Shown: positions 1 through 22,641 of the stretch, in pieces
How the letters are laid out: each line of letters begins with the position of its first letter
Position numbering within the stretch: position 1 is the stretch's first letter
Assembly (NCBI GenBank): GCA_026392045.1
Contig: JAPLCU010000043.1
Coordinates: 1 to 51,887 of the forward strand
From: Armatimonadota bacterium
Lineage (GTDB): Bacteria > Armatimonadota > UBA5829
DNA length: 51,887 nucleotides
Reading direction: 5' to 3'
Notes under the pieces: generated by a model
What the model was told of the DNA's origin: nothing
Databases searched by the model: none
The model's input: the letters and a program-made list of their open reading frames with translations, nothing else
Program-made: the position numbers and the translations under genes

Positions 1-1025
1 TTTTCGTCCGACAAGCACATGGATGGAATTGTGCAAGCCTTTGCCTCCAGGTATTTGTCGTTCTGCACAGTGGCAAAGCCAACGACCCAAATCTTGTGGT
101 TGAATCGCCGTTCTCTGAGAATCCCGGACACAATCCTGCTCCATTGACCAGCGGCTGCATCAGAGTTTCCAAGAGCATCAGTAGCGTGCAGAGATATGCC
201 TTTCTCCCCGTGGACTATATGTGGATCACACCAAATTCTAGACGGCTCATCTGGAAGTGTCTTTTGGCTGCCGATGGGTGCAAAAACGATTTGTCTTACT
301 AGCTGATCGAGGCGACCGCATGAGTTGCAGGCTGCCATCGGTTCGCTTTGTTCGTCCAACCACACACGTCTTGGCACCCATGTAAGACCTGTAAGCAAAG
401 GGATTTCAAGTGGAAGCTGGTAAAGCGGCTGCTCCCAGAAGGGTTTACCGAGAACATCAGTTCTTCGCCAGGAGAGTAGCAAAGTCTCAGCGAGCGAGGC
501 TCCTATCGCTATTAGGTAAATGGGTGGTTTCGCGTTGACACCTGGAGGTTTGCCACGACCTCCAGAAGTGGCGAACATCGGCAGTCGCAACAACCCCGTG
601 GCACAACAAGCGAGACAGATTCCATCCTCTGCACCAGTTGAATGCCGGAAATGCGAGAAGTTAGATCCTGTAGGTATTTCCTGTATGAGATAGTTGGCGG
701 ATAACTTGTCACCGCCTCCACAATCCTGGTAGAACCGCTTTCCATTGCCCAGAAGGTTGAAGCAGTCTCTATTGTCATTAAGTTTAGAAAACCATTCCGC
801 AGGCAATGAACCGACATGCTGGCTATCAGGATTTCCCTTGCACCAATACAGCAGAGCGAGCAAGAACCTCAGGATAGCTATACGATCCATTGGATTGCTG
901 GCAGCTATCTCACGAATCCGACCTGCATCTTCCAGCGCTCTTACAATCCCAACCCGGTCCACAGTTCCGTCCTCGTATAGAACTGGAATCCACTTCTGGT
1001 CAATAAGGTTAAATGATATGCTCAA
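1..1025 (-). CDS. cas8e: Type I-E CRISPR Cascade large subunit Cas8e (Cse1/CasA), 3' part cut by window edge
   Basis: Large subunit of the type I-E Cascade surveillance complex, which recognises the PAM and recruits Cas3. An open frame of 341 codons runs off the left edge with no stop. It begins SISFNLIDQKWIPVL and continues with a GIVRALEDAGRIREI segment and a LRFLLALLYW helix, the typical Cse1 N-terminus. A later CLACCATGLLRLP stretch and a CNSCGR pair of cysteines resemble the L1-loop and zinc-ribbon area of the family. The start is TTG at 1025, preceded by a strong GAGGAGGAGG ribosome site 7 nt upstream; no ATG fits. The family is usually about 500 residues, so roughly a third is missing to the left. 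It lies 26 nt downstream of a cas3 remnant, the normal cas3-cas8e order. The remaining cas genes and any array would lie left of the window. Confidence 0.88.
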   Translation of the reverse strand, partial: MSISFNLIDQKWIPVLYEDGTVDRVGIVRALEDAGRIREIAASNPMDRIAILRFLLALLYWCKGNPDSQHVGSLPAEWFSKLNDNRDCFNLLGNGKRFYQDCGGGDKLSANYLIQEIPTGSNFSHFRHSTGAEDGICLACCATGLLRLPMFATSGGRGKPPGVNAKPPIYLIAIGASLAETLLLSWRRTDVLGKPFWEQPLYQLPLEIPLLTGLTWVPRRVWLDEQSEPMAACNSCGRLDQLVRQIVFAPIGSQKTLPDEPSRIWCDPHIVHGEKGISLHATDALGNSDAAAGQWSRIVSGILRERRFNHKIWVVGFATVQNDKYLEAKACTIPSMCLSDE

Positions 1026-1051
1026 TGTTTATCCTCCTCCTCTTCGTTGTC

Positions 1052-1333
1052 TTATTGGACGTGATTGTATAACCCGCGCAGTCTAGAACATACATGTTGC
1101 TGTGAATTCATCATTTGAAACTTTGGATCAGCTTTACCAATGTCGTGCATTGCGGCGAGAAATATCGTCCATTTTACAGAAAGATCAGTGGGCAGCCCCA
1201 GGCAGTCGATGAGGCGTTCGCATATGGCAGCCGTGTCTATCAAATGACACCACAGAGGATGATAAGGATCAGTTTTTGCCCATAACGCCTGCATTCTGGC
1301 ATCGATAGCAATAAAAGTCAGTTCAGTGCTCAC
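1052..1333 (-). pseudogene. cas3: Remnant of CRISPR-associated cas3 (N-terminal part of HD nuclease domain)
   Basis: A 93-residue frame that matches the start of Cas3: a KTDPYHPLWCHLIDTAA segment (first HD-domain histidines) followed by FLAAMHDIGKADPKF, the metal-binding HD dyad of the Cas3'' nuclease. A normal type I-E Cas3 is about 850-950 residues with a following DExD/H helicase; here the frame runs only some 15 residues past the HD motif before a TAA. The stop is followed directly by the ribosome site of cas8e, so nearly all of the nuclease and the whole helicase are absent. The last dozen residues (RLRGLYNHVQ) may be the old C-terminus joined by an in-frame deletion; this is inference. 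The start codon at 1333 looks normal for the family. Confidence 0.8.
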
Positions 1334-3962: not shown

Positions 3963-4538
3963 TTATTTCACCTGTTCTTTCAGATGCGCCGATCCGGCTT
4001 TAGTGATCTCCCACACTCCACGCGGGGAGTCGGCTTTGAGAAGTCCTTCTCTCACCATGGAGCACCTAGCCCAACAGGCGGCGTTGCGCCAGCGTGGCGC
4101 CTTGGGGTCCGAAGCAAGAGGTTCTTTGTCTACCGGCTTCAAGGAATCTTTCACTATAGCGTGGACCTGGTCCAGCACTTCGCCTATCTCGCCCCGGCCG
4201 CCCATATTACTTAGGACCTGCAAGATGGGAGTGTAGTAGAACACCTCCTTGGTCCGAAGGCCCTTCTTCAGTCGCCCAAGGTCTCTCTTGGAGATTATCT
4301 CCCTTACCTCTTCGTCTTGCACGGCGTAGAGCGCACCCCAGTTCTCCCGAAGTGACGCGACGCTCGACCGATAATCCGTTAGCGTCTGGGCTTGGGTCAG
4401 TATCTGCTGGGCAATGTCCAGTTTGCCGTCGGAAAACGCACGACCGCCGGACTGGTTCACTTCCTCAATGACGCTCTCGATCTCTTCCAGCAGCATCTCG
4501 AACGCCGCGTCTACTCCGGTGTTGTCTTGTCTGGCCAT
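3963..4538 (-). CDS. Winged-helix protein related to the Mrr N-terminal domain
   Basis: 191 residues. The N-terminal half is predicted helical/coiled coil (EMLLEEIESVIEEVNQSGG). The C-terminal half (residues about 95-185) has the layout of the Mrr N-terminal winged helix: FYYTPILQVLSNMGGRGE, then EVLDQVHAIV, then WRNAACWARCSMVREGLL and a WEITKAG closing strand. In Mrr-type restriction proteins this domain senses or binds DNA and is followed by a nuclease, but no nuclease follows here. It overlaps the upstream DprA-like gene by 28 nt, and AAGGAC serves as ribosome site. A regulator or DNA-recognition partner of the neighbouring restriction-type genes is a reasonable inference. Confidence 0.65.
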   Translation of the reverse strand: MARQDNTGVDAAFEMLLEEIESVIEEVNQSGGRAFSDGKLDIAQQILTQAQTLTDYRSSVASLRENWGALYAVQDEEVREIISKRDLGRLKKGLRTKEVFYYTPILQVLSNMGGRGEIGEVLDQVHAIVKDSLKPVDKEPLASDPKAPRWRNAACWARCSMVREGLLKADSPRGVWEITKAGSAHLKEQVK

Positions 4539-5350
4539 TCGTCTGTCCTTCGTTCAATCTTTCGCAACCGGCTTGATATGGCGCTTGGCTGGCGCTGTAA
4601 CTCCTGAGCTATCTCCCGCCGCGTCTTGCCTTCGCCGCGAAGCCTTAGCAGCAGAGCCTCCTCTTGGTCCGTCCATTTCGCATAGGCTTGTGGGTGACCG
4701 AGCCTGATGCTTGCCACACTATAGGCATGCTGGCGCGCATTGGAATCAGCCGATTGCTGCGCCGACTTGTCCATGCCGCTCGGGACGCTCTGAAGAAGCA
4801 CTGCAGCACCACTCAGTGGTATCGACTTCGCACCAACTGCCCGCAGAGATGCCCCGTGCTCCCCATCGAAAGTGAAAACTGGCCTGCCCGATGCAGCGGC
4901 CTCCCTGCAAATCCCCTCCACCATCCCACCTGGTGAGGCATAGGGAACGAACAGGATATCTCCCATATCAGCAACCAGCCGATTGCGTTCGGCTGAACTC
5001 TTTCTCGTTATGTGGTCATGTCCGTCTTCAAATGCGGACATGAGCAGCAATCTGCCTTCATCGATTGGCTTTTTGAGATCCGCCGGTACTCTTGTAGGCA
5101 AGCTTCTGGCATAACAGATCACGATGCCGCACGTTCCACGAAGCAGTATCTTGAGACACTCATCCTCCATCGGAGAGTGGAACCCGCTGATCACGGTTAC
5201 GTTTTCGTTCCTAATGTCGCGCATCAGATCGTATGCGCGCAGAATGATGCTGCCGGGACACTTGACCGAGCACAACAGCGCGATCTTGCGCCCCGCCAGG
5301 ATCCCTGAATCACCATGCAACTTGAGTTGGCGCTCAATAATTTCGTTCAT
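4511..5350 (-). CDS. DprA/Smf-like SLOG-domain protein with C-terminal HTH
   Basis: 279 residues. Residues about 15-195 form a Rossmann-like SLOG/DprA domain: GRKIALLCSVKCPGSIILRA at the start, ISGFHSPMEDECLKILLRG in the middle, and LFVPYASPGGMVEGICREA as the ligand-loop region. Residues about 225-270 form a Myb/SANT- or sigma-like HTH (YAKWTDQEEALLLRLRGEGK then TRREIAQELQRQPSAISSRL). Housekeeping DprA loads RecA on incoming DNA, but it is longer and carries a different C-terminal domain, so this is probably a defence-island SLOG sensor that binds a nucleotide or DNA. It starts 1 nt after the RhuM-Fic stop, which suggests coupling. Confidence 0.72.
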   Translation of the reverse strand: MNEIIERQLKLHGDSGILAGRKIALLCSVKCPGSIILRAYDLMRDIRNENVTVISGFHSPMEDECLKILLRGTCGIVICYARSLPTRVPADLKKPIDEGRLLLMSAFEDGHDHITRKSSAERNRLVADMGDILFVPYASPGGMVEGICREAAASGRPVFTFDGEHGASLRAVGAKSIPLSGAAVLLQSVPSGMDKSAQQSADSNARQHAYSVASIRLGHPQAYAKWTDQEEALLLRLRGEGKTRREIAQELQRQPSAISSRLRKIERRTDEWPDKTTPE

Positions 5351-5351
5351 G

Positions 5352-6365
5352 TCAGTTGTCGCTATTGATGAGGTTGACTACGACTTTGACAACGGTATCC
5401 TTGTGCTGAGGTTTGCTCTCGGCGATCATCAGAGTAAGAGCCACAAGTGCGTTGTCGCCGATACGCTTTCGCCCGTTGCCCGCGTAGAGAACGCCATTCT
5501 CGTCAAGGAACCACAGGAACACTACCGCTGCTATACGTTTATTACCGTCGGTGAAGGAGTGGTTCTTGACTATGAAGTAGAGTAAATGCGCTGCTTTCTC
5601 CTCGATGCTGGGGTATAATTCTTCGCCACCGAACGTCTGATAAATGGCGGCGAGGGAGCCTCGGAACGAGTCGTCTTTCTCGCGCCCGAAGAGTCCCACA
5701 TTCACTCCGCCGCTCCGCATCCGATCCGTCATCCGGTCGATTGCCTCGCGTGCAGCCTCGTATGTGATGTGAAACACCTCATTGGCGGTTGTGTTTCTCA
5801 CTACAAGGCGCTGGTGGTCATAGTCATCAAGAACGGAGAGGGCATAGGCGTAATTAGTTATGACGCGAAGCAATCCGTCGGCTTGTGAACCGTCCAGTTC
5901 CCTTTGGTGTAGCACTTCCCCGATCAGCGCGACGGCTTCCTGTAGTTCCTGATAACGTTCGTTGCGTTCGGCGAGCCTGCGCTGATTGATCGTGTAGCCC
6001 TTGGTTATGTGGTCGCGAAGCGTGTTGGTGGCCCAGATTCGAAATTCCGTGCCGCGCTTCGAGTTCACACGATAGCCAACCGATAGTATCATATCGAGGT
6101 TGTAGTATTGGGTCTGGTAGGTCTTGCCATCGGCGGCAGTATGTGCAAATTTTGCACATACTGAATCTCGATCAAGCTCCTCGGCTTTGAGGATATTCTG
6201 AATGTGCTTCGTAACAACACTTCGCTCGGTCGAGAACAACTCACCGATCTGCTGCTGCGTCAGCCACACAGTCTCGTTCTCCAGGCGAACGTCAAGAGAA
6301 GTTCGCCCGCTATCAGTTTTGTATATTATTATCTCGCCCCGTGGTTCGTCGGTCATCTCAGTCAC
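5352..6365 (-). CDS. RhuM-type protein fused to a Fic/Doc domain
   Basis: 337 residues. The N-terminal half is the RhuM (virulence protein) family: TVWLTQQQIGELFSTERSVV, KHIQNIL, then TYQTQYYNLDMILSVGYRVN and RGTEFRIWATNTLRDHITKG. Residues about 195-330 are a Fic/Doc fold with the active-site motif HSFTDGNKRIAA near residue 265. The catalytic His and the phosphate-binding DGNKR are intact. Fic enzymes transfer AMP or phosphate to target proteins. RhuM-Fic fusions are common near type I restriction genes and in defence islands. The first codon at 6365 is GTG; ATG at 6356 is an alternative start. It sits in the operon between the DUF2513 fragment and the DprA-like gene. Confidence 0.85.
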   Translation of the reverse strand: MTEMTDEPRGEIIIYKTDSGRTSLDVRLENETVWLTQQQIGELFSTERSVVTKHIQNILKAEELDRDSVCAKFAHTAADGKTYQTQYYNLDMILSVGYRVNSKRGTEFRIWATNTLRDHITKGYTINQRRLAERNERYQELQEAVALIGEVLHQRELDGSQADGLLRVITNYAYALSVLDDYDHQRLVVRNTTANEVFHITYEAAREAIDRMTDRMRSGGVNVGLFGREKDDSFRGSLAAIYQTFGGEELYPSIEEKAAHLLYFIVKNHSFTDGNKRIAAVVFLWFLDENGVLYAGNGRKRIGDNALVALTLMIAESKPQHKDTVVKVVVNLINSDN

Positions 6366-6370
6366 TTCAC

Positions 6371-6814
6371 CTAATCCTCTGCAGCCCCACTGCCGTTAAT
6401 CCCCATACGATACTTGATATCGTAGTTGATAATGAAGTCGAGTTCGTCGTTAGTTATGTGCGCAGTTTTCTGTGCTTCGAAACAATCGCGTCTACCTTCG
6501 CCGGCACGCCAAACGCATGGCTGATCTGCTCGTTGGTCTGTACCGCATTTTCTATTCGCTGCAGGTTCTCCTCGCTTATATACGACAGCTTGCCAAGTTA
6601 GTCCCTTGATAAGATAATAACACCATCTATCTCCCATCGATGTTGCATCGGATACGTCCAACAATCCTCCGTCATACATGATTTTGAGGTTATATCCGAT
6701 CTCGTCTTCAGAAAAGCCCTCAATCACGATGCGTGGCGAATGAAGACCTTTAGAATCACCATTCTCTTCGATGTGCAGCAACAGTTTCCGAACCAAATCC
6801 ATATCACGCTTCAT
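6371..6814 (-). CDS. DUF2513-family protein, truncated and joined to a methylase-tail fragment
   Basis: Start at ATG 6814 (MKRDMDLVRKLLLHIEE), with GGGGGAG upstream and a 5-codon overlap with the AlbA_2 stop region. Residues 1-75 are a normal DUF2513 winged-helix protein up to YYLIKGLTWQ. DUF2513 proteins normally continue with a GHEFLDA-type helix, but here that is gone. The frame then reads an unrelated stretch and ends NDELDFIINYDIKYRMG. This is almost exactly the C-terminal end of the adenine methylase at 8073 (EELDFIINYDIKYRMG). In the +1 frame between the two lies a plausible protein piece (LSYISEENLQRIENAVQ ... AKVDAIVSKHRK). So the 3' half is a patchwork left by recombination or decay. 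The function of DUF2513 is unknown. Confidence 0.65.
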   Translation of the reverse strand: MKRDMDLVRKLLLHIEENGDSKGLHSPRIVIEGFSEDEIGYNLKIMYDGGLLDVSDATSMGDRWCYYLIKGLTWQAVVYKRGEPAANRKCGTDQRADQPCVWRAGEGRRDCFEAQKTAHITNDELDFIINYDIKYRMGINGSGAAED

Positions 6815-8069
6815 TGTTATCACTCCCCCACAAACCAAACGCTGCGCTTAATCGAACCATTAAGCGATCCATAAAGTCGTCGGGGCGCTCAACCAGCTCC
6901 TCGGTGGACGTTTCTTCATCTATACTCAAGTCTTTGCTCTCAGAGTAAGGCTGTCCAGGTACCTCAGGCACCTGGCGATACATCGTGCGCCCGATCATAG
7001 CAACTTGATGCTCGGACAACTGATGGCGTATGGACTGCACTAAAGTGTGTTGCTTGGGATCGTTGGTCGCCTTCAACCCCTCGGCGTAGAATATCTGAGT
7101 CTGGCACACGACGGGACAGTGTAGCGTCAGCCCGTCAAGTACTGTGGCGGTGTATCGAGCGAACAAATTCAGCAGATCACGCCTCAGGCTGTCCATCAAG
7201 ATCGTGCCGCTGCTAGTGTGTTTGCTCATATCCATATTCAGACAGACTGCACCATTGTGGAAGACCCTGATCTCGTAATTCTTGCCGTTAACTTCCCCTT
7301 CCGCTTTGCCAAGAAACCGCCAGCCATCCACGAAAGGTATCCATTCGCCTTCTCTTGGAGTTGATTCGGCAGTTGGACGGTTCACCTCCAACCAATTCCT
7401 GAACCCCGGTTGAAGCATACGATCCTTGAAGCGACCGGGAAACACCGGACACGCCACAGCCCGAAGTTGCTGAGCGTAATGTACGCCGAACAGACCGGAG
7501 ATGAAGAAGTCCCGTGCGTGGGTGCATGTTGCCTCTCTCGCCAGATATGCTGCTTCGACTTCTCGCTCATTCATTGGCGTACATTGAAAGTTGCCACGCC
7601 TATAGTATAGACGGATGCCATAGCCTTCGATCATGTGTGGCTTCCAGTAGCTTTCTGGATGATGAACCACCAACAATTGCTTTGGAGCGATTTCTGGAAG
7701 TTGGACTGTTCGTATCGTCAGGGCATGTAGTGGTGGCTGCACCGTAGATAATAAAATATTTTCGACGTTCTCAGGCAAGCCCGGATACATATCCATACCG
7801 CATTCTTCAAGCGATTTGGGGCGGGGCAATCCGTCTTCTATCACTTCTGGGATACCGTAGATCAGGGTCCCACCTTGTTCGTTGGCGAAAGATGAGACGT
7901 CTTTGGCAAGTTCTTTCTTGTCTTTATCCTTGTGAAGACTCAAAGTTGCTTTGTAATCCAGACGTAAGGACTCCGGTTCTCGCTCAGTAATAAGCGATCT
8001 GATCCAATCTGCTAGTTCCTGATCAGTCACATGCCGGATATTCCTAGATAGCATTGGCGCCTCTGTCAT
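6804..8069 (-). CDS. AlbA_2 (Schlafen AlbA_2-type) DNA-binding domain protein
   Basis: 421 residues. The N-terminal third carries the AlbA_2 signature: ESLRLDYKATLSL, then KKELAKDVSSFANEQGGTLI and YGIPE, with GIRLYYRRGNFQCTPMNERE as the closing strand-helix pair. AlbA_2 proteins bind nucleic acid or nucleotide and are common in defence islands, often with a C-terminal effector. The C-terminal 220 residues (HARDFFISGLFGV ... RMLQPGFRNWLEV ... NGKNYEIRVFHNGAV) are not recognised. The ATG lies 3 nt after the stop of the methylase, so translation is probably coupled. It is likely an accessory subunit of the methylase-helicase pair; this is inference from position. Confidence 0.8.
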   Translation of the reverse strand: MTEAPMLSRNIRHVTDQELADWIRSLITEREPESLRLDYKATLSLHKDKDKKELAKDVSSFANEQGGTLIYGIPEVIEDGLPRPKSLEECGMDMYPGLPENVENILLSTVQPPLHALTIRTVQLPEIAPKQLLVVHHPESYWKPHMIEGYGIRLYYRRGNFQCTPMNEREVEAAYLAREATCTHARDFFISGLFGVHYAQQLRAVACPVFPGRFKDRMLQPGFRNWLEVNRPTAESTPREGEWIPFVDGWRFLGKAEGEVNGKNYEIRVFHNGAVCLNMDMSKHTSSGTILMDSLRRDLLNLFARYTATVLDGLTLHCPVVCQTQIFYAEGLKATNDPKQHTLVQSIRHQLSEHQVAMIGRTMYRQVPEVPGQPYSESKDLSIDEETSTEELVERPDDFMDRLMVRLSAAFGLWGSDNNEA

Positions 8070-8072
8070 ACT

Positions 8073-11000
8073 TCATTCGTCACCATCCCCATCGCCGCCG
8101 CCAAGACCCATTCGATACTTGATGTCATAGTTAATGATGAAGTCGAGTTCTTCGTCGGTGAAGCCATAGTGCTTCGCAAGAACCCGGTCGATCTCATCGA
8201 TAATGAGTTTGGATGCCTTAACTTTGTATTCATACAGATTGCCAGAGATACGTGCATCATATCGAGTAATTCTTTTATCTATGAAATCTCTCATTAATTC
8301 CGAGTGAAGACTCTGCAATGTGGTTTTGACGTCGTCTTTCATGCTGTCCCAACCGAATGGGAAGTTTTGCATGTGCCACTTTCCAAAATGCCAACAATCA
8401 GAAACAGAAGTATAAAACCAATAGAACAGTGAACTGTTGAAAGTGGCTACTGCATTGTCTCGAATGACTTCTGTCGGAACCTGCAGGTGTTTGTAAGACT
8501 TTACAGGTGTCAAGAACGGTGTAAAACTCATAGGAAATACCCAATAAGTCTCCCCGTAGTCTTTGAAATAGATATCGTATGATGATTTCGGTACAAACAT
8601 AGTAGACATTTTGTGCTTGGAAAGGATTTTTTCAAATATGCTCATTTCCACTTTCAAAGATACTTTAGGTGTAATACTATCCACGGCATTCAGGCATCTA
8701 GCGTTGCCATATTCGATATTGCTGAATAAATGCTCAAGTATTGGAGTCGTTCGCAAATAGTTCGTTCCCCAAATCTGTTGTCGCAATTCTTCTGTTTTAT
8801 GGGCGATATATATAGATACACGTTGCGATATGCCTGTAAATAGCGAAACAGGACGTATTGCGTGGTTTGTAGTCCAGGAACTTCGCATTTTATCCTCAAG
8901 GAAATAGCGGAGATTGCCATACTCACGAATTGAGGTTAAACTCATTGGCACTATGAGACCTAGTCTTCCTGAGGAACGCATAAGTGCGACAGAGCGTTCC
9001 ATTACCAATGCGTAGAGATTTCCCCAAGAGCCATTCTCGTAACCTTTTAGTAAATATGGAACGTCAGCACCGGGGTATTCCACATATGGTGGATTTCCTA
9101 TAAGAACATCAAATCCGCCTTCGCTGATAATGGAGTGGAACTCAACAAACCAATGGAAAGGCTGATGTGTCTGTAGCCACTTCTGATATTTTGCATGATG
9201 TCTTTTGGCATCTATGACATATTGCCGTGCCAAATATGCGTTAAGTTCGTCTTCGAGTGGCTTCATCTTATCTCTAAGATTTTTCTTGTCCTGTGTCGTG
9301 ATTTCTACGTCAAGTTCTTCTTGTTGTTTTCGGAATAGTGAAAACAGTCCATCTACTTCTTTAGCATTCTCTTCTATCGGAGCCATCTCATCAAACATAT
9401 CCATAGCCTTCTGCTTGCTCCCACAGACAGCGGCACGAACCTCAGCATAAGTAGCAAAACCAATAAGCGTGTTTCCTGCCCTAATGTTAAAATCAATATC
9501 AGGAAGCGGCTCCAGCCCCATGTTGGGTTTAGAACGGTCAGGTTTTACCTCGGAAGCAAGTTTTAGGAACAGACGCAGTTTGCATATCTCCACAGCCTCG
9601 GGCATTATATCCACGCCATAGAGATTGTTTAGGATAATTGATCTGTAAATGAAATACTTGGGGTTCGTGTGCGATTCAACTCGATCAATTGTTTCGGTAA
9701 ACCATCTGTAGTAGTTCGGGTGTACCTGCTTACCGGCATCTCCCCAAGCATCGACGAACTCCTGCATTCTTCCAAGGCAGCCTTCGTAAAGTGGCTCCAG
9801 GATGTTCAGAGCAGCGAAAAGAAACGCCCCGGACCCGCACGTGGGGTCGAGGACTGTCATCTTGCGCAGCGCTTCCCAAAACGCCCGAAGCAGATCAGGG
9901 CTTTCAGTGTTCTCGATAACGTCCTGAGCAAACTGACGTATGTCGAGGTTCAGAGTGATAAGATCGTCAATCGACCGAACTTCCCCGGCTTCTAGCTTCG
10001 CCTTCACTTCCTCATACCGCTGCCGACGAGCCACAACCTCGCGCCATATTTCGGTTGGCAGGGCATAGTCACTGGAAGCGGACTTGTTCCATTCGCCTCT
10101 TTGCGAGACATCTGATATTCCGACGGCGATTTCAGAAGGCAGAGGAAGACCAACGCCCTTCTTGACGGCATCATATATGTACTTGTCTGGGTTCTCTTGC
10201 AGCGCGGTCCAGACCGGCCCTGAGCTTGTCGAAGGGTCGCCCTCAAAGGCAATGGCGCACTTCTTCTTGGCGGCATCGAATAGATAGGGGATGATCGTGT
10301 TCTTGGAGATATACTCGGTTATGTCTTCCTTGGTGTAGTACGCCCCCATCTGCTTCTGGTTGATGTATTTCTCGAAGATGTAGCCCAGGACATCAGGATT
10401 GATCTCCCGGTCGTTATGCATAGGTCGTGAATCGAGATGCCATTCATACTGGTCAAAGAAGTCGAATAATCGCTTGAACGCCTCGTCGGGGATATCGAGA
10501 TCGGGGCTTTCTTGCTCGATCTCATGCTCTTCGAATAAGCCGCCGTTGAGGTAGGGTACCTTGCCCAATAACTCGAAATGCTCTGGTTTCCGATCAGATT
10601 CACGACAATCAGAACCATCGTGGAAGAGCACTCTAAGGAAGCTGCGGTAGAACGAGTAGAACTTGTCCCTTCCACGCCTTTCTTTCAGCATATCGAGGCG
10701 GTTGCGGAGGTAGTTGGGATCGCGGTCCAGGAAGCCCTTCTTCTGGATGAAGTAGACAAACATCAGCCGGTTCAGCATCAGTGATGCATACCAGTCTGTG
10801 TGAGCGACGTTAGTCATACCGGTAATGAACTTCTTGAATGCCTTCAGTTCGCCGTCAAACCGTTCGTAGAACCGCTTCGTTACTTTATCGACGTCCAGAG
10901 CAGACTTGACACGCTCAGAGACGGACTTGATCGAAATATTGCCCTCATCGTCCAACTCTTCCAGATCGAAAACCAGGCCATCAAGCTTCTGAATAAGGGG

Positions 11001-11375
11001 CAGTCCCGATTGGTCATATCTGAAGACATGCTCGCGGGACGCCGACGGCTTGCCGGGTTCCATCTTCACCCACTGCCAGACCTGTGAAATGGTATCGCAG
11101 TAGACTATGATATGTTCGTAGTGCAGCTTTGATACAACGCGGTCGATCTTCCGGCGAACGTGGTAGTCGGGAACTGCGCTATTGTGATCAGCGCTGCATT
11201 GGAGAGCAACCAGACCTCCCATTTCCGAGATAGCGCCAAGCGTATAGTCCTGTCCATCCACCGACACTGTGATCGGCGACAGGCTGCAATGACTCCAACC
11301 GAGCTCCGAGACAAAAAGGCTCTTGAAGTCGCATGTTCGCAGAAGGTCCCGCACTCTGGTCTCGTTCAAACGCAT
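8073..11375 (-). CDS. Eco57I-type N6-adenine DNA methyltransferase (large R-M/defence methylase)
   Basis: 1100 residues. S-adenosylmethionine motif I is DPTCGSGAFL near residue 510, and the catalytic motif IV is NPPYVEY near residue 760, so it should methylate adenine N6. The N-terminal 330 residues hold a helical region typical of class 1 DISARM/BREX-like methylases (TDWYASLMLNRLMFVYFIQK, then GYIFEKYINQKQMGAYYT). The C-terminal part from about 870 would be target recognition, ending in DEELDFIINYDIKYRMG. No PD-D/ExK or other nuclease motif is obvious at the N-terminus, so restriction would have to come from a partner, probably the PLD-helicase whose gene ends 3 nt upstream. A short palindrome-type repeat is embedded in the frame near residue 385. 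AGAGGA precedes the ATG. Confidence 0.88.
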   Translation of the reverse strand: MRLNETRVRDLLRTCDFKSLFVSELGWSHCSLSPITVSVDGQDYTLGAISEMGGLVALQCSADHNSAVPDYHVRRKIDRVVSKLHYEHIIVYCDTISQVWQWVKMEPGKPSASREHVFRYDQSGLPLIQKLDGLVFDLEELDDEGNISIKSVSERVKSALDVDKVTKRFYERFDGELKAFKKFITGMTNVAHTDWYASLMLNRLMFVYFIQKKGFLDRDPNYLRNRLDMLKERRGRDKFYSFYRSFLRVLFHDGSDCRESDRKPEHFELLGKVPYLNGGLFEEHEIEQESPDLDIPDEAFKRLFDFFDQYEWHLDSRPMHNDREINPDVLGYIFEKYINQKQMGAYYTKEDITEYISKNTIIPYLFDAAKKKCAIAFEGDPSTSSGPVWTALQENPDKYIYDAVKKGVGLPLPSEIAVGISDVSQRGEWNKSASSDYALPTEIWREVVARRQRYEEVKAKLEAGEVRSIDDLITLNLDIRQFAQDVIENTESPDLLRAFWEALRKMTVLDPTCGSGAFLFAALNILEPLYEGCLGRMQEFVDAWGDAGKQVHPNYYRWFTETIDRVESHTNPKYFIYRSIILNNLYGVDIMPEAVEICKLRLFLKLASEVKPDRSKPNMGLEPLPDIDFNIRAGNTLIGFATYAEVRAAVCGSKQKAMDMFDEMAPIEENAKEVDGLFSLFRKQQEELDVEITTQDKKNLRDKMKPLEDELNAYLARQYVIDAKRHHAKYQKWLQTHQPFHWFVEFHSIISEGGFDVLIGNPPYVEYPGADVPYLLKGYENGSWGNLYALVMERSVALMRSSGRLGLIVPMSLTSIREYGNLRYFLEDKMRSSWTTNHAIRPVSLFTGISQRVSIYIAHKTEELRQQIWGTNYLRTTPILEHLFSNIEYGNARCLNAVDSITPKVSLKVEMSIFEKILSKHKMSTMFVPKSSYDIYFKDYGETYWVFPMSFTPFLTPVKSYKHLQVPTEVIRDNAVATFNSSLFYWFYTSVSDCWHFGKWHMQNFPFGWDSMKDDVKTTLQSLHSELMRDFIDKRITRYDARISGNLYEYKVKASKLIIDEIDRVLAKHYGFTDEELDFIINYDIKYRMGLGGGDGDGDE
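10212..10239. repeat. PSTSSG-type interspersed repeat inside the methylase gene
   Basis: The plus strand reads GGCCCTGAGCTTGTCGAAGG, so the minus strand encodes GDPSTSSGPV and another frame encodes TLRQAQG. These are the familiar translations of a short repeat seen in many bacterial genomes. It is in frame and splits the methylase between AIAFE and VWTALQ. Only this one copy was seen in the window. Confidence 0.75.
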
Positions 11376-11378
11376 GTG

Positions 11379-14300
11379 CTATTCCTCTCCCCCAGGCTCG
11401 AATAGCCCCATCGAACATATCAGCTTAGGCTCATGCCTCTCCGCTTCTTCCTGAACCATGCACAGCTTGTCCTCACCGCGCAGATTAATGACCACATCGG
11501 CGAGGGTCTCGTCGCTGATACTGCTCTTCATTATTCGGTTCAGCGTGTCAGTGGCCATCTGCTTCAGAGGATACTTGTAGATATCATCAAGGGCCTTTGT
11601 CAGCTCCGGCGAGTCGAAGATAGTCCCCTTGACCTCCGCCGCGTGACGCTTCAGCCGCTCGTATACCTTGAACCTTGCACCCGAAGGTCTGCCGAGTTGT
11701 CCACCTATCGACTTCTCTTCCTTTACGAGGTGCTCAACCCCAGCCCTGACCAGCTCATGGTGTCGAGCATGGCGGGGGATGGCAGGAGTGCCGGGTCCGC
11801 ATTCGGCTGCTCTCAGGACGGTAAGCTGCGACTGCGTTACGCTGCCGCATTCTTTGTCCATCCAGGCGAGAGCATCGCTGCCTTCGGCGGTTCGCATGTA
11901 TAGAAGGACACCTTCGGGGCTTCGCGCACCAGGCTTGTGAGCCTTCGTAGTGTAAGTAACATTGGGCATACTCGGAACGATGCTGGCCAACCGCGGATCA
12001 CGGTCGATGGCGTTCTTCCATATCTGATATGCGTAGGAAGCGAGATCGACTTCATCGTCCTCCTCGCCGTCCATCAGCCCTGACGTTTCGTTATAAATGC
12101 CCAACAGGACTTCGCTGGATATGTCATCCTCAAAGAATGCTTCATCGGCGCCTACTACCTCAGCATTCTCCCGGAGACGTTGCCGAACTTTAGCCCTAAG
12201 CTTGATGAGTTTCTCTACGCCATCAGCCGGCACAAAGGAGTAACAGAGTATCTCTTCGGCCTTCTGTCCAATTCTATCAACACGACCAGCTCGCTGTATA
12301 AGCCTGATGATGGCCCACGGGAGATCATAGTTAACTATGACTGAACAGTCTTGCAGATTTTGACCTTCACTCAAGACATCCGTAGCTATAAGAACCCGCA
12401 GCTCATCTTGTGCTGATACCTTGTCTCGTTTTTCATTGCTTACCGGGCTGAATCGCCAAGCGAGCCCCGTGGGATCAGATGAGCCTCCAGTTACACCTTC
12501 CAAGGCTTGAACGCCACGCTTCTTCATCTGGGCTTCCAGGTATCTAACCGTGTCGGCAAACTGCGTGAATATCAGAACCTTGTCCTTGGGATGGGTCTTG
12601 GTCAGCAGTTCCTCTAATGCATTGAGCTTGGCGTCTTCGTCGGGGTTCCAGTCGCCACATTTCTCAAGCACAGAGAGAAGAGCCTTTGCGTCCCTGGCAA
12701 GGCTTTCGTTCAGGTCTCGAACAAACAGCGTGGGACGCAACCACTGGAATCGGCTCTTGTGGACACCGGAGTAAACAGCATATATCTCTGCAGCTCTTTT
12801 CCGATACCGCGACTCGGAATGGATAATACTATTGACTTCGTTGATGTCGCAGATCAATTCCTCATCACCATTTGTAAGGGTGTAGGTGCAAGCTTCCCCA
12901 TCTTCATCTTGGGAACGAGTGTCGAAGAGTTCCACGTCTTGTGTTCCGATTGGAACAGGCAATCCGTTTTCAAGAGCATGGATGAACACGTAGTTCCGAA
13001 GAACGTGTCGGCTCACCGATTGGATAAAAGTCACGCCGCCGCTTTCAAGCCGTTTGAAAAGATTCGTTCGGCAGAACCCCATAAGGCGCTTGCCAGCCCG
13101 ACCAAGGTCTTTGATCACCTTGTCCTCTCGCGGACTTGGGGAATCAGATGAATTGGGAGCGATGTAGTTCCCCAAACCATACCTCGCCAGTTCCAGCGAA
13201 GCTACCTTGTTTACCACAAATTCACTGTAGAGCCGCGCATACTGGTCATTGGAGTCTTGGTCGTCCACTTTGAACTTGGCGGTCTTGGGTGTGCGAATAG
13301 GGAAATAGGAACGTGTGCCATCATCAAAGGTAAGAAACGTCCGGCCGTTTGATGGGTCGGTCTCGGCATAGTTCTTCTGAATGAAACTGCGAGTGCGGCG
13401 CACCATAAATAGCCGCATCAGTTCTTGCCAATCCTCGGTGTAGTCGCTTTTCTCAAAAGCAGCCAGCGATCTAACCGGGCACTGGTGACGCTTGATGAAC
13501 TCGACTTCGCCACCTGGTTCCTGCATCTTCCGCTCGGGCCGAATGCCCAGATCGGCATCTTCTGGCACGAAAAGCCGCAGCTGATTCGACAGGTCGAGAT
13601 ACGTCTTATTGTAGGGAGTCGCGGTGAGCAGAATGCACTTGCTATCATTCTTGACGATGTAGTCATACAGAGCGTGGTAGGTCTTGGTCTCTCGATTACG
13701 CAAGTTGTGGCTTTCGTCGATGACTACAACCCGGTATCTGCGCAGATCAGGAAGTTCGTTAATCGCCATGCTTACAGAAAGCACCTTTGCGATCATGCGA
13801 TAGTGGTCAACGTGATCCTGCCACATCTTGACCAGGTTCTTCGGGCAGATTATGAGCGTCTCCAGAAAGTGGTCGTCTTGGAATATGCGCGCGATAGCGC
13901 ACGCCGTGAGCGTCTTGCCCAGTCCAACCACGTCGGCGACCAGAACCCCGCCGCGCTTGTTCAGGTGGTGCGCGGCGATCTTGACCGCCGCCTTTTGGAA
14001 CTCAAACAGCTTCTCACGGAACTCTTTCGGAATGCTGTATTCAGAGAGTCCCGCCCGTGCTTCCTGCGAGAGGTGATAGGCCATCTTCAAGTAGATGTGA
14101 TACGGCGGAGTCTCCTTATCACCAGCCCAACTCTCGTCAATGATCTGAACCAGTTCATCGGAAATGTCCAGACACCAGCGGTCGTTCCAGCGATCCTCGA
14201 ACCACTTCGCAAGTTTCTGACACGCGTCGTGGTCAGTGACATCGACATTGAGTTCGCCCTGGTTAGATAAGCCAGCCAGAGTGAGATTGCTGCTCCCGAG

Positions 14301-14771
14301 AAACCCGGTCATCGGATTGTTGAAGTCATCGCGGAACAGCAGGTATAGTTTCGCGTGCAGTGGATGGCGCAGGAATAACTTCACCCTTACCTTATGATGT
14401 CGTATCTGGTCGGCGAGTCGTCCGAGGCCCGCTTCGTCATCATTTGTCGGAACACCCATCGCAATCTGATCGCGAAACTCTTCCGCCAGCTTCTTCTTCA
14501 GTCGCACGGCAGTCTGGTTGTCAATTGCCGGGTTTTCTGAGATTAGACTCAGGCAATCTCGCAGCTCGTCATGAGGGAGTCTCTGCATCCCTACAAGAAG
14601 GCGACAGCATTTATCATCTTCGCCAGACCACTGATCGATGCACGAGTCCAGTTGCCTCCAGCCGCGTAGGTTGAAGTAGCCCACACAGAAATCCGCGCGC
14701 TCAGAAACGCCGAGCGTGGTCTGTAGCGCAGGCATCAGTTTGTCGTCTATATTGTCGAAAATCCTCGGCAT
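11379..14771 (-). CDS. Phospholipase-D-like nuclease fused to an SNF2-type helicase
   Basis: 1130 residues. Residues about 1-200 form a PLD-like domain with the HxK motif ([10 protein letters not shown] near 143) followed by [20 protein letters not shown], as in PLD nucleases attached to helicases. Residues about 260-890 are an SF2/SNF2 motor: Walker [10 protein letters not shown], motif II VIDESH, motif [11 protein letters not shown], and motif [13 protein letters not shown]. The remaining C-terminus is helical and of unknown role. Only one HxK copy is seen, so a dimer would be needed for a full PLD active site. The ATG at 14771 has AGGAG upstream. The 3-nt gap to the methylase gene indicates one operon. 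A translocating nuclease controlled by the methylase is the natural model (inference). Confidence 0.88.
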
Positions 14772-19043: not shown

Positions 19044-19200
19044 GAAGGGGATGAGGCTGGGATTTGGTGGTTTTTTTGTGTGGCAGTGGGGTTCGGTAGG
19101 AAAGGTTTGCAGAAACAGCGAGGATTGGGGAAGGGAGAATGCGCGTCGATGAATAAGGTGTTGAATAGGTAGTTTAATCGCTTTATATGGAGCATACTTG

Positions 19201-22200
19201 ATGGATTTCGTTGAAAATTATATTCTCGGGCTGCGCAATACGCGTCACAGCGGTGCGGCTGTGGATGAAACCGCGCATTATGGCGCTCTGCAGAATCTTC
19301 TCAATGAGATAGGCAAAACCCTTAAACCGAAGGTGCATTGTATCATTGCGCTCAAAAATCAAGGGGCGGGGTTGCCTGATGGCGGGTTGTTTACACCCGA
19401 TCAAATCCGCAAGCAAGCCAAGACCGGAAATGTGTTTGATCAGATTCCAGCGCGTGGGGCAATTGAGGTAAAAGGAACCAAGGATGATGTAGACAAGATC
19501 GCGGATTCTAAGCAAGTAAAGGACTATTTAGGGCGATATGGACTGGTTTTAGTAACGAATTACCGCGATTTTCTGCTTCTTGAGCGCGGGAATGATGATA
19601 AACCCGTGCGTCTGGAGCGTTTTAGCCTGGCTGATAATGAGCAGGATTTTTGGGCGCAAACTGCACACCCGCGCACTATGGCAGATAGGCATGGGGAACG
19701 GTTTTCGGAATATTTGAAGAGAGTGATGCAGCAGGCCGCGCCGCTGACGGAGCCTAAAGATTTGGCGTGGTTTTTGGCTTCTTACGCGCGGGATGCAAAG
19801 GCGCGGGTGGAGGCAGTAAAAGACCTGGCAGCGTTGAACGCAGTGCGGGCTTCGCTGGAAGAGGCGCTTGGGCTGCAGTTTGTGGGTGAAAAGGGAGAGC
19901 ATTTCTTCCGGTCTACGCTTGTGCAGACTCTTTTTTACGGTTTGTTTTCGGCATGGGTGCTTTGGAGTAAGGAAAAAGGCCATTCCACGAAAGATCATTT
20001 CAACTGGCGTATGGCGCAATGGTCTTTGCATGTGCCTATGATTCGGGCGCTTTTTGAGCAGGTTTCCACGCCATCGCAGCTTGGGCCTTTGGAGCTTGAA
20101 GAGGTGATGAACTGGGCAGGGGAAGTGTTGAACAGGGTGAAGCGTGAAGAGTTCTTCGTGAAGTTCAAGGAAGAGCATGCGGTGCAGTATTTCTATGAGC
20201 CGTTCTTGGAGGCATTTGACCCTGAGCTTAGAAAAGAATTGGGCGTATGGTATACCCCGCCTGAGATAGTGAAGTATATGGTGGAGCGGGTTGACAGGGT
20301 GCTGCGCGAGGAACTAAGGATACCCGACGGCCTTGCTGACCCAAATGTGTATGTGCTGGACCCGTGCTGCGGAACCGGAGCTTATCTGGTGGAGACCCTG
20401 AGGCGGATAGAGGAGACTCTGCGGCAGAAGGGGGATGATGGACTGATAGGCCATGATGTGAAGCAGGCGGCAATGAAGCGGGTGTTTGGCTTTGAGATAT
20501 TGCCAGCGCCTTTTGTGGTGGCGCACTTGCAGCTTGGAGTGTTGCTGCAGAACCTGGGCGCGCAGTTATCTGATGAGAAGAACGAGCGCGCCGGGGTGTA
20601 TCTTACGAATGCGCTTACGGGATGGGAGCCGCCGACAGAGCCTAAGATGCAGCTCGCTTTTCATGAGCTTGAAGAAGAGCGCGAAGCGGCAGCCGAGGTT
20701 AAGCGAGAAAAACCCGTGCTGGTGGTGATAGGAAACCCGCCATATAATGCGTTTGCCGGTATCAGCCCCAAAGAAGAACAGGGTTTGGTGGATGTTTACA
20801 AAGAAGGACTAATATCCAAGTGGGGAATTAAGAAATTCAATTTGGATGACCTTTATGTGCGGTTTTTTCGGCTTGCAGAGCGGAGAATAGCCGAGATGAC
20901 CGGTAAGGGAGTGGTGTGCTTTATTTCCAATCATTCTTGGGTGAGCGAGCCTTCTTTTGTCGTTTTGCGGCAGCATTTACTTGAGTCATTTGATAAGTTT
21001 TGGATAGAAAATATGCATGGCAACAGAAAAATATCTGAATATGCGCCAGATGGACGAACAAGTGAGACCGTTTTTGCCATTCAAGGTTTTTCTCCCGGTA
21101 TTCAGCAAGGTGTTGCAATCTCTCTATGGCTTAAATCAAAGAATAAAGATAAATCAAAGCATGTGGTTTTTCGAGATGATCTAAATGATGCAAAAGCATC
21201 GGACAGAAGAGAACAATTACTTGAAACCCTTAATGACCCGAATTTCGAAAAGCGTTATGAGCAGTCGATGCCCGATGAGAGCAATAGGTACTCTTTTAGG
21301 CCTGAAAAAGTATCAAAAGAATATAAGAGTTGGGTTTGTGTTAGCGAAATACCAGAGCAATCTCCATCACTAGGAATCTTAGAAAACCGTCGCGATGCGC
21401 TAATAGATACAGATTATGATCTTCTCAAGAATCGAATGATTACCTATTTTGATGAATCTATTAGCATGGAACAACTTGCAGCAATGGCGCCTGGAATCGC
21501 TATTAATGCTGCCAGGTTCAATGCAAGGCTAACAAGAGATAAGGTAATATCAATTGAAACATTTTCATCCGAAAATATTCGGCGTGCCACGGTTCGTCCG
21601 ATGGATACGAGATGGTGTTTTTACAACACTATTCGACCATTATGGAATGAACCGCGCCCATCGTATGCAAAGCAATGCTGGAAAGGAAACGGGGCTTTAG
21701 TTACTCGAAGACGTGGAGTAGCCGCACCAGAAGGCGTACCGTTTAATTTTATTTCAACTATTGGCCTTCAACATGCACTCCATACAGATGCGTATTATTT
21801 CCCTATACTTTTCAAGAATGGCATTAATAAAGAATCTAAAAACCATGTGATTCCTGGTTTTATTAACGAGAGTGAAGTAGTTCATGCAAACCTTAGCTTA
21901 AAAGCATTCAATTACCTCTCGTCAATCGGTCTCGCATCAATTGACGATTGGGATAATGCCTCAAGTTTATGGATGCATGTGCTTGCGATTGGCTATTCAC
22001 CTAACTATCTTGTTGAAAATGCTGACGGAATAAAGCGAGACTGGCCGCGAATCCCCCTCCCTAATTCCCGCGAGCTTCTTATCAAATCTGCAGAACTGGG
22101 CAAGAAAATAGCGGCGCTGCTGGATACGGAAAGCGACGTGGCGGGGGTGACTTCGGGTGAGATCAGGCCGGAATTGAAGAAGATTGGCGGGATTTCGGGT

Positions 22201-22641
22201 GCGGCTGGCGGGCAAATAGACCCCGGCGCGGGTGACCTTCGGATTACAGCGGGATGGGGGCATGGCGGTAAAGATGGCGTTACAATGCCGGGTAAGGGCA
22301 AGATCGAGCGGCGGGCTTTTGGCGCTGAAGAATCAGACTGCAACTTGCCTCTGCTTGGCGACGAGACTTTGGACGTTTACCTCAATGATAAGGCGTATTG
22401 GAAGAACATACCGGCGCGGGTGTGGGATTACCATATAGGCGGATATCAGGTGATTAAGAAGTGGCTCAGCTATCGCGAGTATGTTATGCTGGGGCGCGAT
22501 CTTAAGCCCGAAGAAGCGCGCGAGGTGATGAATATGGCCCGTCGGATTGCGGCGATTATCCTATTGGAGCCGGAGCTTGATAAGAATTACGCGGCGGTGA
22601 AGGAGAATTGTTATTCTTGGAAGGGGAATACGGAGAGGTAA
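19201..22641 (+). CDS. Single-chain nuclease-adenine methylase, type ISP/IIG style
   Basis: 1146 residues from ATG 19201 (TTG one codon before; GGAG 9 nt upstream). The N-terminus holds a PD-(D/E)xK nuclease pattern: LPDGG near residue 58 and IEVKG near 89. Motif I of the methylase is DPCCGTGAYL near 386 and motif IV is NPPYNAFAG near 510. The following GIKKFNLDDLYVRFFRLAER then GKGVVCFISNHSW is characteristic of type ISP methylase cores. The C-terminal 450 residues end with the ISP specificity-domain style IPARVWDYHIGGYQVIKKWL then SYRE. True type ISP enzymes (about 1570 residues) carry an SF2 helicase between nuclease and methylase; it is absent here. It probably cuts and modifies DNA as one chain. 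It stands alone between two unrelated genes. Confidence 0.85.
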   Translation: MDFVENYILGLRNTRHSGAAVDETAHYGALQNLLNEIGKTLKPKVHCIIALKNQGAGLPDGGLFTPDQIRKQAKTGNVFDQIPARGAIEVKGTKDDVDKIADSKQVKDYLGRYGLVLVTNYRDFLLLERGNDDKPVRLERFSLADNEQDFWAQTAHPRTMADRHGERFSEYLKRVMQQAAPLTEPKDLAWFLASYARDAKARVEAVKDLAALNAVRASLEEALGLQFVGEKGEHFFRSTLVQTLFYGLFSAWVLWSKEKGHSTKDHFNWRMAQWSLHVPMIRALFEQVSTPSQLGPLELEEVMNWAGEVLNRVKREEFFVKFKEEHAVQYFYEPFLEAFDPELRKELGVWYTPPEIVKYMVERVDRVLREELRIPDGLADPNVYVLDPCCGTGAYLVETLRRIEETLRQKGDDGLIGHDVKQAAMKRVFGFEILPAPFVVAHLQLGVLLQNLGAQLSDEKNERAGVYLTNALTGWEPPTEPKMQLAFHELEEEREAAAEVKREKPVLVVIGNPPYNAFAGISPKEEQGLVDVYKEGLISKWGIKKFNLDDLYVRFFRLAERRIAEMTGKGVVCFISNHSWVSEPSFVVLRQHLLESFDKFWIENMHGNRKISEYAPDGRTSETVFAIQGFSPGIQQGVAISLWLKSKNKDKSKHVVFRDDLNDAKASDRREQLLETLNDPNFEKRYEQSMPDESNRYSFRPEKVSKEYKSWVCVSEIPEQSPSLGILENRRDALIDTDYDLLKNRMITYFDESISMEQLAAMAPGIAINAARFNARLTRDKVISIETFSSENIRRATVRPMDTRWCFYNTIRPLWNEPRPSYAKQCWKGNGALVTRRRGVAAPEGVPFNFISTIGLQHALHTDAYYFPILFKNGINKESKNHVIPGFINESEVVHANLSLKAFNYLSSIGLASIDDWDNASSLWMHVLAIGYSPNYLVENADGIKRDWPRIPLPNSRELLIKSAELGKKIAALLDTESDVAGVTSGEIRPELKKIGGISGAAGGQIDPGAGDLRITAGWGHGGKDGVTMPGKGKIERRAFGAEESDCNLPLLGDETLDVYLNDKAYWKNIPARVWDYHIGGYQVIKKWLSYREYVMLGRDLKPEEAREVMNMARRIAAIILLEPELDKNYAAVKENCYSWKGNTER

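Follow-up and report, generated by a model that had tools for sequence, protein, structure and literature searches.

The window, which is the whole 51,887-nucleotide stretch of DNA that was analysed, ends at the 5′ edge of a CRISPR operon of subtype I-E2, the variant in which Cas5 carries a fused HNH nuclease (Cas5-HNH, or "HNH-Cascade"). The truncated cas3 found at that edge is very likely the decaying remnant of a Cas3 that has been replaced in a working I-E2 system. The locus is therefore a further example of a known, recently described variant, with a leftover scrap of Cas3 attached. The window corresponds to an entire contig, C77 (G000:C77:1-51887), and ends inside cas8e; the remainder of the operon lies on a second contig, C83 (5372 bases), of the same genome (G000: 3.55 Mb, 206 contigs, 98% complete, with a contamination estimate of 2%).

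The cas3 stub and its surroundings in the window

The cas3 remnant (1052..1333, minus strand) is an open reading frame of 93 aa with a GTG start: about 75 codons from the start of the Cas3 HD domain are followed by about 18 non-conserved codons and a stop. A preliminary description of this DNA had proposed a type I-E locus whose cas3 is cut down to the first part of its HD domain, and profile comparison bears this out. The stub covers positions 1-80 of the 207 positions of Pfam Cas3_HD (E 1.2e-14, above the curated cut-off) and matches NCBIfam cas3_HD at 1e-9, slightly below the cut-off of that model. It also matches two Cas3 structures, the Thermus Cas3 HD structure 3sk9 (2.8e-9) and 4q2c. 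The motifs YHPLWCH and MHDIGKADPKFQ are both present in the HD part, and alignment to 3sk9 shows that the first histidine (chain residue 24) and the HD pair (69-70) are still in place. The other metal ligands of Cas3 lie further downstream in the protein. Nuclease activity is not expected of the stub because these remaining ligands are missing, and with the whole helicase gone as well it should be catalytically dead. In pairwise comparison it is closest to a full-length Cas3 from the same phylum (G079; 57% identity over 63 aa), and comparison of its last ~18 codons with Cas3 C-termini revealed no homology.

The stub leads directly into cas8e (cse1): a TAA stop is followed by the strong Shine-Dalgarno-like sequence AGGAGGAGG (1033..1041, minus strand), 7 nt from a TTG start at 1025. 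This arrangement agrees with the earlier suggestion that translation of cas8e was preserved at the junction. The description of cas8e as intact-looking holds in part: the frame stays open for 341 codons within the window (3..1025, minus strand; Pfam CRISPR_Cse1 1.9e-35), but the gene runs off the contig end. Measured against canonical subtype I-E, the Cas8e portion in the window (341 residues) fits the Cse1 profile over the first 265 of its 450 positions only; against cas8e of two I-E2 loci (L055 and L086), identity is 60-61%.

Other defence genes were seen elsewhere in the window. Beside the CRISPR locus, positions 3963-14771 (minus strand) encode a protein with an Mrr N-terminal domain, a DprA-like protein, a PDC-S23 candidate, a Schlafen AlbA_2 protein, a type IIG restriction-methylase (PADLOC, 1045 bits) and a PLD/HKD-Snf2 helicase, and this stretch is probably a defence island. 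At 6371-6838 (minus strand) there is a short ORF that ends in a copy, ~23 codons long, of the C-terminus of the type IIG enzyme beside it (ELDFIINYDIKYRMG); it is probably a duplicated gene end. Another type IIG-like restriction-methyltransferase is located at 19198-22641 (plus strand; PADLOC 1.7e-101).

The remainder of the operon and its nuclease

As the preliminary description had proposed, cse2, cas7, cas5, cas6e, cas1-cas2 and an array were looked for, and all of them are on C83, the one contig of the genome to match in searches for Cas7e and Cas1. C83 begins with the 3′ end of cas8e (97 codons; L022:2-295, plus strand) and continues with cse2, cas7e, cas5, cas6e, cas1 and cas2, which is the type I-E order; its array has five 29-nt I-E repeats at 61-nt spacing. 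The I-E Cascade subunits Cas8e, Cse2, Cas7e and Cas6e are all present in the operon, split over the two contigs. Judging from the fit of Cas8e, the ends of C77 and C83 very probably adjoin, because the two pieces (341 aa on C77 and 97 aa on C83) together fall only ~20 residues short of the full-length L086 Cas8e. The 2% contamination estimate means that the bin may be mixed, and this counts against reading the two contigs as one locus.

Cas5 on C83 (367 aa) consists of a Cas5 domain (Pfam Cas_Cas5d) followed by a C-terminal HNH domain (Pfam), and nearly its whole length aligns with the Cas5-HNH chain 8yb6_A (residues 3-365, E 5e-132). It is on these two grounds that the locus belongs to subtype I-E2, a name given to this variant by Makarova et al. 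2025 (PMC12669027). Residues C278, C281, H290, D304, C309, C312 and H313 do not vary among the eight Cas5-HNH proteins of the phylum. They comprise CxxC pairs, histidines of the HNH region (H290 and H313) and D304, so that zinc-binding and catalytic positions are conserved. Full-length Cas5-HNH was not found in the plasmids and phages searched.

Previous work shows what such a complex can do. The HNH-type complex of Ca. Cloacimonetes carries out RNA-guided cleavage of dsDNA at a defined place by means of its HNH domain (PMC10910872). Most Cas5-HNH examples are without cas3 (Altae-Tran et al. 2023, PMC10910872), and in I-E2 loci generally Cas3 is typically absent and cleavage is the task of HNH (PMC10910872, PMC12669027). 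Given its homology to a Cas5-HNH system that has been tested, the complex encoded here would also be expected to assemble and cut: a crRNA-guided Cascade (Cas8e, Cse2, Cas7, Cas5-HNH and Cas6e) would find the target, and the nuclease acting on both DNA strands would be the HNH domain of Cas5 instead of Cas3. The earlier view that this Cascade could bind DNA and could not cut it unless a Cas3 were encoded elsewhere is not supported, because Cas5-HNH on C83 is the defining I-E2 architecture.

A second cas3 was nevertheless sought, as had been suggested; there is none in the assembly, and none is needed given Cas5-HNH. Profile searches of the genome (full-length Cas3, HD domain and core helicase) returned nothing besides the stub, and the remainder of cas3 was not found on any other contig. 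Two weak helicase matches were considered as a second cas3 and set aside: their sequences resemble RecG and Mfd, as judged by inspection rather than by profile. Cas3 is absent or vestigial in this genome, as expected for I-E2.

Stubs and I-E2 loci across the phylum

A whole-genome survey of one phylum found Cas5-HNH (I-E2) loci in 8 among 291 genomes, one of which (G085) is cut off at cas5. An HD stub stands immediately before cas8e in two of the seven loci with a visible 5′ end, those of G000 and G233; it was not found in the other five (G016, G017, G090, G091 and G248), nor at the I-E2 locus of the IMG/VR contig L086. The ends of the two stubs differ by no more than about ten codons, both falling after HDIGKADPxF, and the G233 stub ORF continues into cas8e. 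Over 50 aligned codons the stubs have a protein identity of 54%, with pS 0.80 (saturated) and pN 0.36, the latter close to the pN of cas6 (0.33) and cas8e (0.28) for the same pair of genomes. A tree built with iqtree places the G233 stub beside the full-length Cas3 that the same genome encodes (95% ultrafast bootstrap); an alternative tree in which the two stubs are joined is slightly worse and is not rejected (AU p 0.25). The two stubs hint that Cas3 was lost more than once, a point that the tree does not settle.

Several observations concern the relatives themselves. G233 has two loci (contigs C12 and C36): one is canonical I-E and has a Cas3 frame of 886 aa, the other is I-E2 and has the Cas3 stub, which is closest to G233's own Cas3 (62% over 61 aa). 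Cas1 of the locus studied here (L022) is 75-80% identical to Cas1 of G016 and G017 and 56% identical to that of G233, whereas for Cas7 and Cas8e the G233 proteins are the closer ones (comparison with L023, L024 and L055). This discordance between protein sequences suggests that adaptation and effector modules have been exchanged. Three related loci from the genome contigs were examined and set aside: L007 and L008 are ordinary I-E (Cas3 HD present, Cas5 without HNH), and L006 has an apparent Cas3 C-terminus before cas8e on a contig that does not reach cas5. The viral-collection contig (L086:1-8259, IMGVR_UViG_3300005916_000376; 8.3 kb) carries cas8e, cse2, cas7, cas5-HNH and the start of cas6, and the operon adjoins a lambda-family phage portal gene (Pfam Phage_portal_2, 5.1e-64). 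This system could be phage-borne or prophage-adjacent, or the contig could be chimeric.

Origin of the stub and comparison with known systems

Remnants or truncations of cas3 near Cas5-HNH loci are reported to be rare and to suggest progressive loss of cas3 (Altae-Tran, PMC10910872). In the present case the 93-codon HD stub would be what is left of an ancestral I-E cas3 at its usual site before cas8e, presumably without function. One point against a decaying remnant is that the ORF has stayed open and its sequence is well conserved, which would not be expected of a long-dead remnant. The stub might instead have a function for which selection keeps it in some members of the I-E2 family, either as a mini-protein or as a leader whose translation is coupled to that of cas8e. 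Both G000 and G233 have an open stub just upstream of cas8e, with similar ends after the same motif, which is consistent with such a role, as is the continuation of the G233 ORF into cas8e; saturated synonymous differences alongside a pN near that of cas6 and cas8e could likewise mean selection on the stub. This is unlikely, however, for a piece with an incomplete HD active site that is missing from most I-E2 loci with a visible 5′ end and from L086. Moreover, the grouping of the G233 stub with the Cas3 of its own genome means that the truncations may be independent and recent, in which case the conservation would be that of the former full-length gene. The more specific proposal of a conserved accessory mini-protein or coupling leader belonging to one I-E2 branch, a piece of Cas3 reused after HNH took over catalysis, we regard as decidedly unlikely. 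A decaying remnant is favoured because the data can also be accounted for by two truncations that arose separately and fairly recently, and this reading agrees with the published remark on rare cas3 remnants.

The contig break 1 kb away, inside cas8e, shows that assembly is difficult here, and a full cas3 could in principle have been lost by assembly collapse. This is very improbable because an independent genome, G233, has the same arrangement of stub and cas8e; in addition, cas3 is normally missing from I-E2 loci, and the other contigs hold no remainder of the gene. The preliminary description had also raised the possibility that the I-E Cascade has no nuclease and now serves transcriptional repression, which would suit a genome in which Cas3 was not found. 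But a nuclease is supplied by Cas5-HNH with its conserved motif residues, cas1 and cas2 are present, and the array spacers match the rest of the genome at chance level only (15-31 bases), which counts against repression. The proposal is unsupported and scarcely credible.

The result corrects how a "headless" CRISPR locus is read: a cas3 remnant of this kind can point to a Cas5-HNH system whose genes lie on different contigs. The survey adds eight I-E2 loci in one phylum and one on an IMG/VR contig, and the two stubs beside I-E2 genes offer material on the question whether the gain of HNH preceded the loss of Cas3, and on how frequently Cas3 was then lost.

Like canonical I-E, the locus has the order cas8e-cse2-cas7-cas5-cas6e-cas1-cas2 and I-E repeats, and the stub sits in the place of cas3. 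Canonical I-E combines Cascade with a Cas3 that has a complete HD nuclease and a helicase, whereas this locus is without the Cas3 helicase-nuclease and its Cas5 has an HNH domain. In its I-E gene order, its HNH on the C-terminus of Cas5 and its lack of a working Cas3, it is like subtype I-E2 (PMC10910872, PMC12669027, PDB 8yb6). It differs from the usual I-E2 locus in keeping a 5′ remnant of cas3, 93 codons long, before cas8e, a kind of remnant that is reported to be rare (PMC10910872).
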